DNA from: Alphaproteobacteria bacterium
Lineage (GTDB): Bacteria > Pseudomonadota > Alphaproteobacteria > Micavibrionales > Micavibrionaceae
NCBI GenBank assembly: GCA_024275825.1
Contig: JAJRYK010000016.1
Coordinates: 1-39,218 of the forward strand
Direction: 5' to 3'
Length of the DNA: 39,218 nucleotides
The notes beneath the pieces were generated by a model. That model made no database searches. It was given only the letters and a program-made list of their open reading frames with translations, and was not told where the DNA came from. The translations under genes and the position numbers were made by a program. Positions within the stretch are counted from its first letter, which is position 1. Each line of letters opens with the position of its first letter. Below are positions 16,586-36,761 of the stretch, piece by piece.

Positions 16586-17796
16586 ATGCCTATTACCTTC
16601 GAAGATGTTTAAAATGCTCATAAGGCTGTGAAGGATTCCATTATTCACACGCCCACAGTGCGTGCGGCGCGTTTGTCTGTTCATCTTGGGCTTGATCTAT
16701 TTTTGAAGCTGGAGAATTTGCAGCACACAAATGCGTTTAAGGGTTGTGGTGTGCTGAATAAACTTTTAACGCTGGATGAGGCGCAACGAAAGGCTGGCGT
16801 ATTGCGTGCTCGCGCGGTAATCATGCGCAGGGCGTTGCATTTTTTGCGCAAAAACTTGGTATTCCGGCAATCATCGTGATGCCAGAAGGCACACCGTTTA
16901 ACAAAATCGCGAGAACAGAAGACTTTGGCGCATGTGTGATTGTACACGGCAAAGACCTTATTGAATCAACGGACGAGGTTAACCGCCTTGTTGAGAGTGA
17001 AGGCTATATGTTCATTCACCCGTTTGATGATCCGCTGATCTTGGCTGGGCAGGGGACGTTGGGGTTGGAGATGATCCAGGATCAACCGGACCTGGATGTC
17101 GTCGTCGTGCCTGTTGGCGGCGGCGGTTTGATTGCGGGGGTGGCCACGGCGATTAAGGGCGTGAAGCCGGAGGTTGAGATTATCGGTGTGCAGGCTGATA
17201 ATTATCCAATGGTTAAGGCAGCGTTCTATGGCACGGATGAAAAAGTTGGGGAGGCAACGCTGGCGGAAGGTATCGCTGTTGAAGAGCCATCTTAAGCAAA
17301 TGTTGAGGTGATTAAGAATTTGGTTAGCCGCATAGAAACAGTAAGTGAGCAGGAAATTGAAGCGGCCATTTTTGATTTGCTTAGTGATGAAAAACTGGTA
17401 GTGGAGGGCTCTGCTGGTGCTGGGCTGGCTTTTGTTAAAAAGCACGTCGAGGAATTTAAAGATAAAAAGGTTGGCTTGGTCATTTGTGGTGGAAATTTAG
17501 ACTCGCGCTTGCTCTCCACGCTTATTTTACGTGGCTTGGTCCATGATGGGCGGATTACGCGCCTCCGTTTCGAGATTGATGACACGCCCGGTCAGCTCTC
17601 TGATATCTCCCGCATTATCGGCGAAAGCGGCGCGAACGTGGTGGAAGTGATTCATCAACGCATGATGCAAAGCGTGTCTCTAAAAAGCGCGGAGCTAGAT
17701 GTCGTGATCGAGGCCCGCGATAAAATGCATGTTGGCGATATTGTCCAAACCCTCCGCGATGCTGGCTTTGTGACGCATGTGATGAGTGAAGTTTGA
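16586..17796 (+). pseudogene. threonine ammonia-lyase (ilvA/tdcB-like), multiply broken
   Basis: The whole region reads as a threonine ammonia-lyase with a C-terminal ACT-like domain once three lesions are corrected. The start MPITFEDV is followed by an in-frame TAA at codon 9 (probably CAA in the ancestor). A 1-base deletion near 16800 shifts the frame within the V-I-A-x-S-x-G-N-H-A-Q-G motif. A second TAA at 17293-17295 interrupts AVEEPS-x-ANVEVI. The PLP lysine (AFKGCG, normally SFKERG) and the glycine loop PVGGGGLIAG remain, but ER is changed to GC. The ACT part (RFEIDDTPGQLSDISRIIGE) is intact. Three independent lesions argue for real decay and loss of deaminase activity, with possible effects on isoleucine synthesis unless another copy exists. 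Confidence 0.9.
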
Positions 17797-27322: not shown

Positions 27323-28069
27323 CTATCTCGTCATCAACACATGATAAAAATGATTTTCACTGTCTAGCGAACAAGTGACGCAGGCTTGCAAGGCAGTGCG
27401 AGCCGCTGCGCCGGAGTAATCTTGCGCGAATGTGGTTTCATCAACAGTGTTGACGGTGGTGTAGAATTGCTGCGCGGCATCGAAGCGGCCAAGGGCGCCG
27501 ACATGGAGGCAGCTGCCGGGGTTGGAACCTGATGCGGCAACTGCGCCCGTGTCGGTGGGGCTTGCGGCTTGGTTGTTGAGCGCATTTATTTTGGTGCAAA
27601 ACGCCGCCGTAACATTGGGCAGCACGGCAATAAGGTCTGCTTTGTCAGAGCCAGCACCGGGCAGATGCGTGCCGCCGTAAAATTCCCATGCACTGCCGTC
27701 ATTAATGTCGCTGGGCGCTGCGCGATAGGCCGCGCCGCCGCCATCGCGGTGGAATATCTGATCTGTTTTATCTGTATCGGCTGATAAGTCGCCATAATCA
27801 GCATGCGCATCAGGGTGAGAAAAGCGTAAATCAGATTCGCTTAGGCCATTTTGCATGGCGAAGAAAACCGCGCGTTCTAGCTCAGAGGCATAGCGCTGCA
27901 CTTCCGAGGCTTTGATCGCCAATGTCTCATCATCAATATTACTGGATTCCGGGCTTCCGCCAGACATAACCGCGGCGCTTAGGGCGGCGATTAGCACAAC
28001 CGCCAACAGGATCATGAACAGCATATTGCCGCGTTCATTATAGCGTGTTTTTGTGGATAGAGAAATCAT
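27323..28069 (-). CDS. pilin-like (type IV pseudopilin-like) protein, paralogue 1
   Basis: 248 residues. A short basic leader (ISLSTKTRYNERGN) is followed by a hydrophobic helix MLFMILLAVVLIAALSAAVMSGG, as in prepilins, though the usual G-F/M-x3-E cleavage motif is not exact. The rest is a soluble domain with paired cysteines and three blocks shared with the protein at 34666-35376: GGGAAYRAAP, DLIAVLPNVTAAFCTKIN, and the C-terminus HFYHVLMTR. Two cysteines lie close together near the end (CVTC). It follows the carboxypeptidase gene by 24 bases on the same strand. Function unknown; surface filament subunit or secretion pseudopilin is possible. Confidence 0.65.
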   Translation of the reverse strand: MISLSTKTRYNERGNMLFMILLAVVLIAALSAAVMSGGSPESSNIDDETLAIKASEVQRYASELERAVFFAMQNGLSESDLRFSHPDAHADYGDLSADTDKTDQIFHRDGGGAAYRAAPSDINDGSAWEFYGGTHLPGAGSDKADLIAVLPNVTAAFCTKINALNNQAASPTDTGAVAASGSNPGSCLHVGALGRFDAAQQFYTTVNTVDETTFAQDYSGAAARTALQACVTCSLDSENHFYHVLMTR

Positions 28070-30683: not shown

Positions 30684-30712
30684 TTGACACTAAAGATAAA
30701 AGAGCCTAAATG
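30684..30712 (+). promoter_or_regulatory. candidate clpS promoter
   Basis: TTGACA (30684-30689), 17-bp spacer, TAAATG (30707-30712, weak -10). Transcription would start just upstream of the chosen clpS ATG at 30734, which is one reason to prefer that start over 30710. Confidence 0.35.
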
Positions 30713-30733
30713 TTTGTTTTTGAAGAGATTTTT

Positions 30734-31087
30734 ATGAGTGATGATGATCCGGCAGCGCCTATGGGCCCTGACGATGGCGGCGATGAAGGCCAGCATGATA
30801 CCGGTTTAGCGCTCAAAACCCGGCCCCAGACCAAAAAACCGTCTATGTACAAGGTTTTGCTGCTCAATGACGATTATACGCCGATGGAATTTGTCGTGCA
30901 TGTGCTGGAGAAGTTTTTCAGCAAAAACCGCCAGGAATCGACTGATATCATGTTGCATGTTCATCGCCGCGGCGTTGGGCTTTGCGGCGTTTTTACTTAT
31001 GAAATTGCCGAAACCAAAGTCGCGCAGGTGATGGATTTCGCCCGCGCCAATGAACAGCCTTTGCAATGCACGATGGAAAAGGAATAG
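30734..31087 (+). CDS. clpS: ClpS, N-degron adaptor for ClpAP
   Basis: 117 residues from ATG 30734. ClpS binds proteins with N-terminal Leu, Phe, Trp or Tyr and passes them to ClpA. The acidic flexible N-terminus ([17 protein letters not shown]) is followed by the adaptor core: [20 protein letters not shown] holds the Asn-Asp pair that grips the free N-terminal amine and the hydrophobic-pocket residue Met; [19 protein letters not shown] and the C-terminal [15 protein letters not shown] complete the fold. clpA begins 54 bases downstream, and aat, which makes such N-degrons, lies in the same window. Confidence 0.96.
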
Positions 31088-31141: not shown

Positions 31142-33463
31142 ATGCTTTCTCGTAATCTCGAACAAACCCTTCACAAAGCCCTCGCCGTTGCGGCGGAATA
31201 TGGGCATGAATATGCGACGTTGGAGCATTTGCTGTTTGCGTTGACGGAGGATCAGGATGGAATGGCCGTGCTGCGTTCTTGCGGGATTAATTTGCAGGAT
31301 GTGCGTGACCGGCTTTTGGGGTATATCACTAGCGAGTTGGGGTATTTAGTCAACAAAGACGCCGAAGAATCCAAGCCGACAACGGCGTTTCAACGCGTGC
31401 TTCAGCGCGCTGCGATCCATGTGCAATCCTCTGGCCGCGAAGAGGTCACGGGCGCGAATGTGATTGTTGCGCTGTTTTCTGAGCGTGAGAGCCATGCCGT
31501 GTTTTTCTTGCAGGAACAGGATATGACGCGCTTTGATGCGGTGAATTATATCAGTCACGGTATTGCCAAGGTGCCTTCGCAAAGCGATACCGGAAAAGGT
31601 CCGCGCGGCACCGAAGACCTTAATGAGAAGGATGTTAAAACCGGCTCCGAAGCGCTCGCAGCTTATTGTGTGGATCTTAACCAAAAGGCGCGTGATGGTA
31701 AAATTGATGTGCTGATTGGCCGTCATAAAGAGGTCGATCGCACGATCCAAATTCTCTGCCGTCGTTCCAAGAACAATCCACTTTATGTTGGCGATCCAGG
31801 CGTGGGTAAGACCGCGATTGCGGAAGGGCTGGCGAAGAAAATCGTGGATGGTGAAGTGCCGGATGTGCTCTTGGATTCTGTTATTTACTCGCTGGATATG
31901 GGCAGCTTGCTCGCGGGTACGCGTTATCGTGGTGATTTTGAGGAACGGATTAAGGCCGTGCTAAGCGAGCTTGAAGACATTGATGGCGCTGTCTTGTTCA
32001 TTGATGAAATTCACACGGTGATTGGCGCGGGCGCAACCAGCGGCGGCGCGATGGATGCCTCGAATTTGCTCAAACCTGCTCTGTCGAATGGGTCGCTGAA
32101 ATGTGTCGGCTCAACGACCTATAAAGAATACCGGAATTATTTTGAGAAAGATCGTGCGCTGGTGCGGCGCTTCCAAAAGATTGATGTGAATGAGCCGAGT
32201 ATCGAGGATTCAATTGCGATTTTGACGGGGCTCAAGCCTTATTACGAAGAGCATCACAAGGTGAAATACACTGCTGGCGCGATCAAGGCTGCGGTGGAGC
32301 TGTCGGCGAAATATATGGGCGATCGTAAGCTGCCGGATAAGGCGATCGATATTATTGACGAGGTCGGCGCAGCGCAGATGCTGGTTACGCCCGATAAGCG
32401 TAAGAAAAAAATTACAGAGAAGGATATTGAGGGCGTTGTGGCGATGATTGCTCGCATTCCGGCGGCCACGATGAACAAGGACGATAAGGCTGCTCTGCAA
32501 ACCCTCGAGCGTGATCTGAAAACGATGGTTTATGATCAGGACGCTGCTATTGATGTGCTGTGCGATTCCATCAAGATGGCGCGCGCGGGACTTCGTGATC
32601 CTGAAAAACCGATTGGCTCTTATTTATTCTCTGGCCCGACCGGGGTTGGTAAAACCGAGGTCGCGAAACAGCTTGCCAAGACGATGGGCATTGAGCTGGT
32701 CCGCTTTGACATGTCGGAATATATGGAGCGCCATAGCGTTTCCCGCCTGATCGGTTCACCGCCGGGCTATGTTGGGTTTGAGCAGGGCGGCTTGATGACC
32801 GACAAGATCGATCAGCATCCGCACTGCGTGCTGCTGATGGATGAGATTGAGAAGGCGCATCCGGATCTGTTCAATATTTTGCTGCAGGTCATGGATTACG
32901 GCAAGCTGACGGATAATAACGGTAAAGTCATTGATTTCCGCAATGTGATCTTGATCATGACGACCAATGCGGGCGCGGCGCAAATGGCTAAATCGCCAGT
33001 CGGGTTTAATCGTGAGATTGGTGATGATGTTGAAAGCTACGCTGATAATGAAGTGCTGATGAAAACCTTCGCGCCGGAATTCCGCAATCGCTTGGATGCG
33101 ATCGTGCCGTTTAAAAATTTGGCGCGCGAGACGGTTGAGAAGGTCGTTGAGAAATTTGTTATTCAGCTCGAAGGGCAATTGGCCGATAAAAATGTGGCGA
33201 TTGAGCTGTCCGATGAAGCCCGCGCCTATCTCGCAAAAAAGGGCTACGACCCCGCTATGGGCGCCCGCCCCCTCGCCCGGGTTATTCAGGAAGAAATTAA
33301 AAGACCGCTGGCCGAAGAAATTTTGTTTGGCAAGCTTGCCAAGGGTGGCTTGGCTCTGGTGGATTATGTGGATGATGCGCTGATTTTTAGTTATGAAAAT
33401 CATAAACTTAAAACTAAAAAAGCAACAAAAAATATAGAACCATCAGAAGAAAAAATGAAGTAA
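31142..33463 (+). CDS. clpA: ClpA, ATP-dependent unfoldase of ClpAP
   Basis: 773 residues. N-terminal Clp repeat domain (residues 1-145, starting SRNLEQTLHKALAVAAEY), first AAA+ module with Walker A GDPGVGKT (217-224) and Walker B VLFIDEIHTVIGAG, second module with GPTGVGKT (about 498-505), VLLMDEIEKAHPD and sensor residues in GYDPAMGARPLARVI. It unfolds substrates for the ClpP peptidase; an IGF/IGL-type ClpP loop is expected between the Walker B and sensor regions of the second module, but I did not locate it with certainty. The last 20 residues are Lys-rich and variable. Follows clpS in the usual operon order. Confidence 0.97.
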   Translation: MLSRNLEQTLHKALAVAAEYGHEYATLEHLLFALTEDQDGMAVLRSCGINLQDVRDRLLGYITSELGYLVNKDAEESKPTTAFQRVLQRAAIHVQSSGREEVTGANVIVALFSERESHAVFFLQEQDMTRFDAVNYISHGIAKVPSQSDTGKGPRGTEDLNEKDVKTGSEALAAYCVDLNQKARDGKIDVLIGRHKEVDRTIQILCRRSKNNPLYVGDPGVGKTAIAEGLAKKIVDGEVPDVLLDSVIYSLDMGSLLAGTRYRGDFEERIKAVLSELEDIDGAVLFIDEIHTVIGAGATSGGAMDASNLLKPALSNGSLKCVGSTTYKEYRNYFEKDRALVRRFQKIDVNEPSIEDSIAILTGLKPYYEEHHKVKYTAGAIKAAVELSAKYMGDRKLPDKAIDIIDEVGAAQMLVTPDKRKKKITEKDIEGVVAMIARIPAATMNKDDKAALQTLERDLKTMVYDQDAAIDVLCDSIKMARAGLRDPEKPIGSYLFSGPTGVGKTEVAKQLAKTMGIELVRFDMSEYMERHSVSRLIGSPPGYVGFEQGGLMTDKIDQHPHCVLLMDEIEKAHPDLFNILLQVMDYGKLTDNNGKVIDFRNVILIMTTNAGAAQMAKSPVGFNREIGDDVESYADNEVLMKTFAPEFRNRLDAIVPFKNLARETVEKVVEKFVIQLEGQLADKNVAIELSDEARAYLAKKGYDPAMGARPLARVIQEEIKRPLAEEILFGKLAKGGLALVDYVDDALIFSYENHKLKTKKATKNIEPSEEKMK

Positions 33464-34665: not shown

Positions 34666-35376
34666 CTACCGCGCCACCAACACCTGATAGAAGAAATGAC
34701 CCCCGTTACTATCTGTAACGCAGCCGGTTGATTTTCCGATGAGAGCTGCGGCGGCAGCGCCGATTGTATTTCCGCTGCTATAGCTGCCGGTGAATTTCTG
34801 GTTGGTGGGGAAGGCGAAGCCGTCTGTGGTGTCGCCGGAAATTCCAAGCTGGGTATTGATATGGGTACACACGCTTTGATGGACCCACGGTAGCACCATG
34901 ATCAGATCATATGTACCAGTATTGCCGATGCCGCTAATCTCTTCATTACCGGTGAAATACCATTCGCCATAAAGGGTTGATGCGGTTTCTTGCGGGTCGA
35001 GCCACTCTTCAATCGGTGCGCTGTAGGTTACGCCGCCGCCATTAATGTGGAGCACGTCGCAGACATTGCCGCTGGGGGCGCCGCCGTTGGTGTAGCCAGT
35101 GAGCGGGTTATTGTCGAAATTGATTTCAGTATCTTCGCAGGTATTGGATATGCGGATATTTTGAACGCCCAGCCGCACGGTTCTGGCGTAATCTGTGATT
35201 TCTGCGCCATAGATCCTCAGACTTTCATCGGCAATGCCCGATATACTTTCGTCGCGGACCATACTGGAAACAGCGAAGCTCAGCGCGCCAAACAGGGCGA
35301 CGGCAATCAGGATAATAACCAGCGCGCTGCCACATTCGTTTGTGCGTTTGTTTCTGTAGAGGCGCAGGAATTTCAT
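34666..35376 (-). CDS. pilin-like (type IV pseudopilin-like) protein, paralogue 2
   Basis: 236 residues. Basic leader (MKFLRLYRNKRTNECGS) then hydrophobic helix ALVIILIAVALFGALSFAVSS, with G-S before it as a possible prepilin cleavage site. The soluble part shares blocks with the protein at 27323-28069: GGGVTYSAP, DLIMVLPWVHQSVCTHIN, and the C-terminus HFFYQVLVAR. Several cysteines could form disulfides, which fits an extracytoplasmic location. Start is divergent from the receiver-deaminase gene; the intergenic region is 77 bases. No pilus assembly genes lie in the window. Confidence 0.65.
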   Translation of the reverse strand: MKFLRLYRNKRTNECGSALVIILIAVALFGALSFAVSSMVRDESISGIADESLRIYGAEITDYARTVRLGVQNIRISNTCEDTEINFDNNPLTGYTNGGAPSGNVCDVLHINGGGVTYSAPIEEWLDPQETASTLYGEWYFTGNEEISGIGNTGTYDLIMVLPWVHQSVCTHINTQLGISGDTTDGFAFPTNQKFTGSYSSGNTIGAAAAALIGKSTGCVTDSNGGHFFYQVLVAR

Positions 35377-35453: not shown

Positions 35454-36296
35454 ATGAGCGAAAATACATCCATCAAAATTTTAATTGCCGAAGATAATGA
35501 TGTTAGCCGGAATTTGATGGCTGGTGTATTGCGCGGGCAGGGTTTTGAGGTGATCGGCGCGGTGGATGGTGAGAGCGCGATCAAGGTTGTGCAAGAGCGT
35601 CCCCTGGATTTGATCTTCGTTGATATCAATATGGAGCCGATGGGCGGGTTTGATTTTATGCGCTATCTGATCGCGAAGGGGATAAAAATTCCTGTTGTGA
35701 TTGTGACAGCCGGTGAGTCGGCTGATATGCTGATGGAGGCGAATGCGCTTGGCGCTGCGCTGGTGTTGCAAAAACCAATTGTGCCAGAGCGCCTTATAAA
35801 AACCGTGCACCGGATTTGCAAAAGCTCTGGTTTGATGAGTAAATCCATTGCGGTTGAAGCGCATGAGGCGAAGCTGTCGCCAGAAGAGCTAATGCGCAGG
35901 GCAATAGAGCTTGCGGCGAAAAATGCGCGGCGGAAAATGGGCGGTCCTTATGGCGCCGTTCTTGCGGATGCTGATGGTAAAATCGTGAGCGAGGGCGTTA
36001 ATGGTGCAGGCTCGCGCGCCGACCCGACAGCGCATGCGGAGGTGATGGCTATTCGTCTGGCGGCGGATAAGCTGGGTATGGCGGATTTATCGGATTATGT
36101 GCTGTATTGTAGCTCTGAGCCGACAAATGTGGGGAAGTCTCTGATTTTAAGCGTTGGCATTCAGATTATATATTGCGGTCTTAGCATGGATGATATTGGT
36201 GACTTGCAGCCGCGCAATGAAACAGCAAAGCCTAAATATAAGACGATTTGCCGCGATGAGGCGCTTGAAATGTTTAAGCTTGCGCAGGATCGTTAG
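35454..36296 (+). CDS. response regulator receiver fused to a degenerate cytidine/guanine-deaminase-like domain
   Basis: 280 residues from ATG 35454 (an upstream extension to 35340 reads through the leader of the divergent gene). Residues 7-125 are a complete receiver: acidic pair Glu13/Asp14, phospho-acceptor Asp57 (IFVDINMEPMGG), Thr85, Lys107. Residues 143-275 match nucleoside deaminases of the GuaD/TadA group: MRRAIELAAKNARRKMGGPY, then DPTAHAEVMAIRLAADKLG with zinc ligand His194 and catalytic Glu196. The second motif, normally CEPCPMC, reads SEPTNVG (221-227), so both zinc cysteines are lost (Thr224, Gly227). The domain is probably not an active deaminase, but may bind a nucleotide or base as an output or sensing module. 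Single gene, convergent with ridA. Confidence 0.85.
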   Translation: MSENTSIKILIAEDNDVSRNLMAGVLRGQGFEVIGAVDGESAIKVVQERPLDLIFVDINMEPMGGFDFMRYLIAKGIKIPVVIVTAGESADMLMEANALGAALVLQKPIVPERLIKTVHRICKSSGLMSKSIAVEAHEAKLSPEELMRRAIELAAKNARRKMGGPYGAVLADADGKIVSEGVNGAGSRADPTAHAEVMAIRLAADKLGMADLSDYVLYCSSEPTNVGKSLILSVGIQIIYCGLSMDDIGDLQPRNETAKPKYKTICRDEALEMFKLAQDR

Positions 36297-36299
36297 GTT

Positions 36300-36761
36300 C
36301 TAAGTCTCAACCTCAAAAATAGCGTCAATCTCGACCGTGACCCCGCGTGGCAGGGAGGGCACCCCAATAGCAAAGCGCGCGTGCTTTCCGCGCTCGCCCA
36401 TTGCTGCAACGATCAAATCTGATGCGCCGTTGACGACTTCTGGATGATCTGTGAAATCGGGTGTGCAGGCAACAAAGGCCCCGAGTTTGACGCAGCGTTT
36501 AACCTTCGACCAATCTTCGTCCACTGCATGATTAACTTGTGCGAGAATGTTGAGCGCGCAAGCGCGGGCGGCCTCTTGGCCTTGCTCTATAGACGTTTCG
36601 GCGCCGAGCGTGCCCATATGCATTTTTTCACCATTTAAAAACGGGATTTGGCCGGAGATAAAAACTTGATTTCCGCTGATTACATAGGGAACGTAATTAG
36701 CGGCGGGAATTGAGGCTTCGGGGAGGTTGTAGCCGAGGGATTTAAGTTTTTCTACGAGCAT
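36300..36761 (-). CDS. RidA-family protein (YjgF/YER057c/UK114)
   Basis: 153 residues, longer subgroup of the Rid family. Features: VFISGQIPF, GTLGAETSIEQGQEAARACALNILAQV, and the C-terminal HARFAIGVPSLPRGVTVEIDAIFEV, in which the Arg of SLPRG.. and the terminal Glu belong to the ligand pocket. RidA removes reactive 2-aminoacrylate-type enamines formed by PLP enzymes such as threonine ammonia-lyase; members of side subgroups differ in activity. That a threonine ammonia-lyase in this window is a pseudogene makes its substrate here uncertain. Divergent from the NDUFA12-like gene. Confidence 0.92.
   Translation of the reverse strand: MLVEKLKSLGYNLPEASIPAANYVPYVISGNQVFISGQIPFLNGEKMHMGTLGAETSIEQGQEAARACALNILAQVNHAVDEDWSKVKRCVKLGAFVACTPDFTDHPEVVNGASDLIVAAMGERGKHARFAIGVPSLPRGVTVEIDAIFEVET

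Follow-up and report, generated by a model that had tools for sequence, protein, structure and literature searches.

Response regulators with catalytically dead enzyme effectors are already known, RssB being the example, and the response regulator PopA carries a degenerate GGDEF domain. In RssB, a receiver is joined to a PP2C-fold effector that lacks the active-site residues and docks on ClpX, the protein acting as an adaptor of the protease ClpXP (PMC7226468). CpdR of Caulobacter is a response regulator that is also a ClpXP adaptor, and PopA is a further adaptor of ClpX (PMC11519897). The zinc of plant guanosine deaminase is bound by His80, Cys110, and Cys113; Glu82 serves as the base, Asn69 anchors the substrate, Cys107 makes contact with its 2-amino group, and the site is capped by Tyr185 (PMC9739398). 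Among the open-licence papers listed by our searches there is no report of a receiver-deaminase fusion, of a guanine deaminase as effector, or of a paired series of zinc-intact and zinc-less forms beside clpA, and the word "deaminase" is missing from PMC12632262, PMC5847659, and PMC1183210.

In the present work, we describe a gene that joins a receiver to a guanine deaminase (GuaD)-like domain without zinc cysteines. It lies in a stretch of 39,218 nucleotides, analysed as a whole and referred to here as the window, from a genome of 1.92 Mb whose nearest relatives are named, for instance, Micavibrio sp. or Alphaproteobacteria bacterium; Micavibrio-type bacteria can be predators. The gene product is probably a phosphorylation-switched response regulator whose remodelled, non-catalytic GuaD-fold output works by binding, and which descended from a zinc-intact fusion beside clpS-clpA. 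The evidence that bears on this reading and on its alternatives is discussed below.

A receiver joined to a zinc-less guanine deaminase fold

The gene and its parts are as follows.

35454..36296, + strand: receiver-linker-zinc-less GuaD-like gene, 280 aa (ORF from the ATG at 35454; Pfam)
35466..35825, + strand: receiver domain, residues 5-124 (Pfam PF00072 at 9-118; residue check; fold)
35622..35624, + strand: codon of D57, predicted phosphorylation site (alignment column 57, D in 38/42)
35826..35873, + strand: linker, residues 125-140 (model confidence partly low; mean pLDDT 58 at 131-140)
35874..36293, + strand: GuaD-like output domain, residues 141-280 (1tiy fold match; 1wkq profile match)
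36033..36041, + strand: HAE motif (residues 194-196), which keeps the first zinc ligand and the catalytic Glu (alignment)
36108..36134, + strand: CSSEPTNVG, residues 219-227, with T224 and G227 at the positions of the former zinc cysteines (alignment; PT in 42/42)

Pfam recognises a Response_reg domain at residues 9-118 (E 5e-23) and a dCMP_cyt_deam_1 domain (PF00383) at residues 144-242 (E 3e-16; 59.5 bits vs. a cut-off of 25). The AlphaFold2 model, built from a 64-row alignment, has a mean pLDDT of 91.9 and a pTM of 0.57, so each domain can be trusted but not their placement relative to one another. The receiver model fits known receiver folds at Z of about 22, and the output-domain model (residues 141-280) superposes on 1tiy, B. 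subtilis guanine deaminase, with Z 21.2 and rmsd 2.2 over 139 aligned residues. Foldseek matches the output half to 1wkq (E 6e-12), and a sequence profile of 36 family members leads to the same B. subtilis enzyme (1wkq, E 1e-29), which is the closest solved structure to the output domain both by sequence and by predicted fold.

A sequence-only reading of this DNA had described a receiver with complete phosphorylation residues, fused to a deaminase-like output that keeps HAE while its CEPCPMC motif has become SEPTNVG with loss of the zinc cysteines, and each of these features is confirmed by our analyses. The full set of five receiver residues is present (E13/D14, D57, T85, and K107), the Pfam match and the guanine deaminase fold agree for the output domain, with HAE at 194-196, and the segment aligned with CEPCPMC reads SEPTNVG, both cysteines of the PCxxC pattern being gone (T224, G227). 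The protein ends in -LAQDR and is without the C-terminal Tyr that caps the active site of GuaD.

The loss of the zinc motif is conserved throughout the family. A search of 142 genomes of the order (threshold E 1e-40) identified full-length relatives in 42 of them, the window being included in this and the following counts, and every one belongs to the window's own family (f1; two sister families in the same order are designated f6 and f2). One extra relative (L193, in G081), cut by a contig end, reads SSEPTMMG. Both zinc cysteines are missing in all 42 full-length relatives, and this conserved absence rules out chance or sequencing error, while both PCxxC cysteines are present in 40/40 of the zinc-intact GuaDs compared. 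P223 and T224, the latter in place of the first zinc Cys, are invariant (42/42), and position 227, that of the second, is Gly in 39, Ser in 2, and Ala in 1. E196 is kept in 42/42, H194 in 41/42, and N183 in 36/42.

Residues that are fixed in f1 and rare among the 40 zinc-intact GuaDs include R188, S221, T224, G227, L230, V234, and G235, and those lost in at least 85% of f1 members relative to the same 40 are Cys 221, Tyr-Trp 232-233, Arg 235, and Phe-Asp 253-254. The last residue is Tyr in 2/42 f1 members vs. 9/9 f6 fusions. Counting from the zinc ligands of the plant enzyme, plant Asn69 corresponds to N183 and plant Cys107 to S221. The base, the first ligand, and the anchor have thus been retained, and the rest of the guanine site has been rebuilt.

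This pattern bears on the possibility that the old active site binds a purine or phosphorylated nucleotide without zinc, ligand and phosphate being read jointly. The retention of E196, H194, and N183, the last aligned with the substrate-anchoring plant Asn69, is in its favour, as is the start of helix 225-234, where the invariant T224 and near-invariant G227, together with the newly fixed R188, could hold an anion. It is countered by the loss of the Tyr-Trp pair, the Arg, the Phe-Asp pair, and the 2-amino-contacting Cys, and by the rarity of the cap Tyr, and we regard such a sensor as possible but doubtful. With these guanine-site residues lost and the cap Tyr mostly gone, the protein is less likely to sense plain guanine than to bind an altered ligand or another protein. 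The sequence-only reading had also suggested a nucleotide- or base-sensing switch, and here the retained anchor and catalytic Glu agree with it, whereas the lost contacts do not; its wider interpretation is supported as regards a receiver with a family-conserved zinc-less deaminase output, but not as regards nucleobase or stringent-type sensing.

The dN/dS ratios are low for both domains where dS is usable, viz. 0.007-0.071 for the output domain (5/8 pairs) and 0.008-0.105 for the receiver (4/8 pairs). In the other 7/16 comparisons dS is saturated, and two of the usable dS values, which lie near 2, are rough. As judged from these ratios, both domains are under purifying selection and the output domain is not drifting. 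In the deaminase tree, from which the zinc columns were excluded, the zinc-less domain forms one clade (support 100/100) on a long branch of 1.19 changes per column.

Zinc-intact fusions in sister families

A search of the 142 genomes of the order with the output-domain alignment also recovered frames of about 270-390 residues in f6 and f2. Thirteen of these are receiver-GuaD fusions with their cysteines intact (L167-L179), nine from f6 and four from f2. These relatives, in which the receiver is degraded and which in f6 also lie beside clpA, are the main point of the present work and were outside the view of the sequence-only reading. D57 and K107 are kept in 13/13 of the zinc-intact fusions, the second acidic residue of the receiver is N, P, A, or Q in all 13, and T85 is lost in 11/13. 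Judged by these residues, their receivers are pseudo-receivers under the definition given in PMC12632262. Degradation is strong in f2, where Pfam gave no receiver for L176.

All five receiver residues are present in 35/42 of the zinc-less fusions, in 10/10 of the lone receivers described below, and in 0/13 of the zinc-intact fusions (Fisher p 5e-8 for the reciprocal receiver/zinc pattern, related rows not being independent). An intact enzyme site is thus accompanied by a degraded switch, and vice versa. In the remaining seven f1 members (L124, L126, L128, L129, L130, L132, and L133), both the enzyme site and the switch are degraded, which indicates that phosphorylation is not required in every member of the family. 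The series of forms in f1, f6, and f2 looks like an enzyme being turned into a regulator.

Two further observations concern f2. The fusions L175-L177 and L179 keep the zinc cysteines, their Trp and Arg are gone, and Gly is found at 235 as in f1, so that their pocket may represent a half-way state toward the dead f1 domain. In one draft genome (G001), L180 (4992-5792, - strand) has KAV in place of HAE and Glu and Ser in place of the cysteines, and it retains the Trp, the Arg, and the C-terminal Tyr; this would be a second apparent loss of deaminase catalysis, by other substitutions. Elsewhere in the window, a receiver protein at 1819-2934 has His (LLHATLEPM) at the place of the phosphorylated Asp and looks like an aspartate-less pseudo-receiver; its second half looks, by its motifs, to be of the HD type.

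Gene order, lone receivers, and the origin of the fusion

The neighbouring genes that recur with the fusion are listed here.

30710..31087: clpS
31142..33463, + strand: clpA, a frequent neighbour (near 27/42 f1 loci and before the fusion in 9/9 f6 loci)
36300..36761, - strand: convergent gene of the YjgF/RidA family (Pfam), also downstream of lone receivers

In f6 the fusion gene follows clpA at every locus. With start codons as chosen by us, its start overlaps the clpA stop in L168, L169, and L173 and lies 6-19 nt past it in L167, L170, L171, L174, and L178; at the ninth locus, L172, a gap of 80 nt separates the end of the clpA match from the fusion. In f1 a clpA match (E 1e-30, within the fetched stretch) accompanies 27/42 loci, upstream on the same strand in 24 and adjacent on the opposite strand in 3; identity to the window ClpA is at least 75% in 23 of these matches and 41-69% in the other 4, which may be paralogues. 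The remaining 15/42 loci have no clpA match at this threshold in the fetched stretch, which in 3 of them ends at a nearby contig edge. The f2 fusions are not adjacent to clpA, and AIM24 and SNase-like genes downstream are common to f2 and f6. Gene order thus ties f1 to f6 through clpA, and f6 to f2 through the downstream genes.

Among those conserved neighbours of the fusion that were searched, none was recognised as a histidine kinase; orphan response regulators are common. A pseudopilin-like gene (by eye) on the opposite strand often stands between clpA and the fusion in f1, and the window holds two related proteins of this appearance, with an N-terminal hydrophobic segment, at 34666-35376 and 27323-28069. 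In several f1 genomes (G097, G047, G048, G049, G025, and G067) the number of clpA-like genes is between two and five, with tandem copies in some cases. A RelA/SpoT gene is found in f6 downstream of both clpA and the fusion, at a distance of a few genes (L169:9003-10442); none was noticed in the window, and we have treated this proximity as gene order only and not as a sign of stringent signalling. At 16876-17796 of the window, a threonine-dehydratase-like gene (by eye) is represented by two ORFs, 16876-17295 and 17308-17796, in adjacent frames, which represent either a split gene or a sequence error.

The recurrence of clpA raises the alternative that the protein is a phosphorylation-gated adaptor or inhibitor of ClpAP, acting with ClpS, whose dead GuaD domain would either dock on ClpA or keep hold of a substrate. 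The zinc-intact f6 gene directly after clpA and the clpA match near 27/42 f1 loci are consistent with it, and so is the service of the response regulators RssB and CpdR to Clp proteases (PMC7226468 and PMC11519897). However, adjacency to clpA may reflect inherited order only, the f2 fusions lie away from clpA, clpA is retained in 12/12 fusion-less f1 genomes checked, and the RssB matches of the receiver are far under the cut-off, with a paralogue scoring alike. Such a specific role is rather unlikely as matters stand, and the broader reading of a switch that works by binding is the one that we continue to prefer.

We also inspected the region past clpA in two f2 genomes and in 57 of the 62 f1 genomes that have no full-length fusion. 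Ten of these f1 genomes carry a receiver by itself there (119-146 aa), the YjgF gene being the next or next-but-one called gene in 10/10, and no receiver was found downstream of clpA in the other 47/57, a few of these stretches being short. Beside the lone receivers there is no convincing deaminase remnant, two matches having E 0.016 and 0.099 and there being otherwise none at E 1. In the receiver tree, they form two groups among the f1 fusion receivers, and two changes are forced by well-supported branches, the g29 group being nested with fusions at 97/91 and the g3 group less firmly at 86/86. L082, a paralogue from the window's own genome, also falls among the f1 receivers, so the set of lone and fused receivers is not cleanly closed. 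The lone receivers likely reflect two losses of the output domain, and its absence from these ten genomes means that it is dispensable somewhere. Since they were sought only downstream of clpA, their position gives no independent support for a Clp link.

In a wider search at the level of the class, the window protein has matches in 3 of 385 genomes (E 1e-25), all of them f1, and a profile of the zinc-intact fusions has matches in 66 (E 1e-30). No receiver-GuaD fusion outside f1 was found among the matches listed, in which all others start at profile position 126 or later and so include no receiver. A contig scan gave at least 80 loci, and among the 80 kept there are 61 stand-alone homologues, all with the PCxxC pattern and none with an in-frame receiver. 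The deaminase tree, which used 20 of these 61 and left out L192, does not settle the place of the zinc-less clade among the zinc-intact GuaDs. When constrained, it gives p-AU 0.067 for all fusions together, 0.266 for the dead domains with f6, and 0.355 for the dead domains with f2, and the receiver tree gives 0.245 for all fusions together (receiver trees included 25/42 f1 receivers, and the one with the lone receivers took 6 of 24 other receivers). In both domain trees, holding all fusions together lowers the likelihood, which is neither clear rejection nor support.

Since the trees leave the origin of the fusion undecided, the single origin that we infer for the f1 and f6 fusions is based on gene order, together with shared architecture. 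The ancestor was most likely a fusion of receiver and guanine deaminase located beside clpS-clpA, of which the zinc-intact form persists in the sister families, and on the sequences compared the likely history runs from a live enzyme to a dead enzyme with an intact switch and then to the switch alone.

Proposed working and comparison with known systems

Three observations point to a switch that acts by binding: the phospho-chemistry is retained, the output fold is under selection, and receivers survive alone in some genomes. A kinase encoded away from the fusion gene would phosphorylate D57, phosphorylation would alter the presentation of the dead GuaD domain, and this domain would bind either a protein partner or a small ligand in its altered pocket. 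ClpA/ClpAP is the first candidate for the partner on account of gene position, and also since RssB, with its dead-enzyme effector, serves ClpXP.

A bolder form of this proposal is that sister families took one fusion of the clpS-clpA operon in opposite directions, either to a live enzyme with a dead switch or to a live switch whose enzyme is dead, the switch later being left by itself; the dead-enzyme form would have become a phosphorylation-gated ClpAP adaptor. We hold this version to be unlikely; if true, it would be an RssB-independent origin of response regulators that control Clp proteases through a pseudoenzyme effector.

Two other explanations deserve less weight. Residual catalysis, through a different metal site or through the retained His and Glu acting without metal, could draw on the kept HAE, the invariant E196, and the nearness in sequence of C219 (36/42) and C215 (39/42) to the former site. 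However, C219 is replaced by V, S, G, T, or A in 6/42, C215 is ancestral, and there is no second or third new invariant Cys or His, so that this explanation is very improbable. The sequence-only reading had named a zinc site completed by other Cys or His residues as a result that would speak against loss of catalysis; we looked for one, and the family alignment contains no newly gained invariant set. An alternative zinc site is unlikely, H245 also varying in 6/42, and we infer that the domain is inactive as a deaminase. Least probable of all is that the output domain is a decaying remnant and the receiver alone matters, as might be read from the lone receivers between clpA and the YjgF gene in ten genomes, since the output domain is under purifying selection with many newly fixed residues and L129, L130, L132, and L133 have lost the phosphorylation Asp yet keep PT and E196.

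The protein extends the range of response-regulator effector domains by a guanine deaminase fold, and a possible phospho-switch acting on ClpAP is indicated for a group of bacteria whose signalling is little studied. Pseudoenzymes are mostly recognised after the fact, whereas here the zinc-intact, zinc-less, and stripped forms are found in one order, all beside clpA. With the three forms comparable in this way, the steps from enzyme to regulator can be tested by swaps of domains and residues.

We have also compared the protein with NCBIfam models (the best 25 of 98 families). Its matches to RssB, which cover the receiver part only, reach 69 bits vs. a cut-off of 329 and 55.5 vs. 700, and the receiver scores 50 bits against CpdR vs. 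a cut-off of 180; it was assigned to neither family. The nearest paralogue (L082) also has RssB as its top match, so the RssB likeness of the receiver is generic.

Among known systems, B. subtilis guanine deaminase (1wkq/1tiy; CDA superfamily, PF00383) shares with the output domain its whole-domain fold, sequence homology, HAE, and the DPTAHAE core. Unlike this enzyme, the window protein is fused to a receiver and has no zinc cysteines, and its family also lacks the Tyr-Trp pair, the Arg, and the Phe-Asp pair typical of zinc-intact GuaDs. The zinc-intact fusions of f6 and f2 have the same domain order as the window protein and a similar length, and those of f6 lie beside clpA as do many in f1; they differ in that PCPMC is intact and their receivers are pseudo-receivers. 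The lone receivers at the clpA locus resemble single-domain regulators such as CpdR. The likeness to RssB is one of design, viz. a receiver whose enzyme-fold effector is catalytically dead and acts through binding (PMC7226468), the difference being that the effector of RssB is PP2C-like and that of the window protein deaminase-like.
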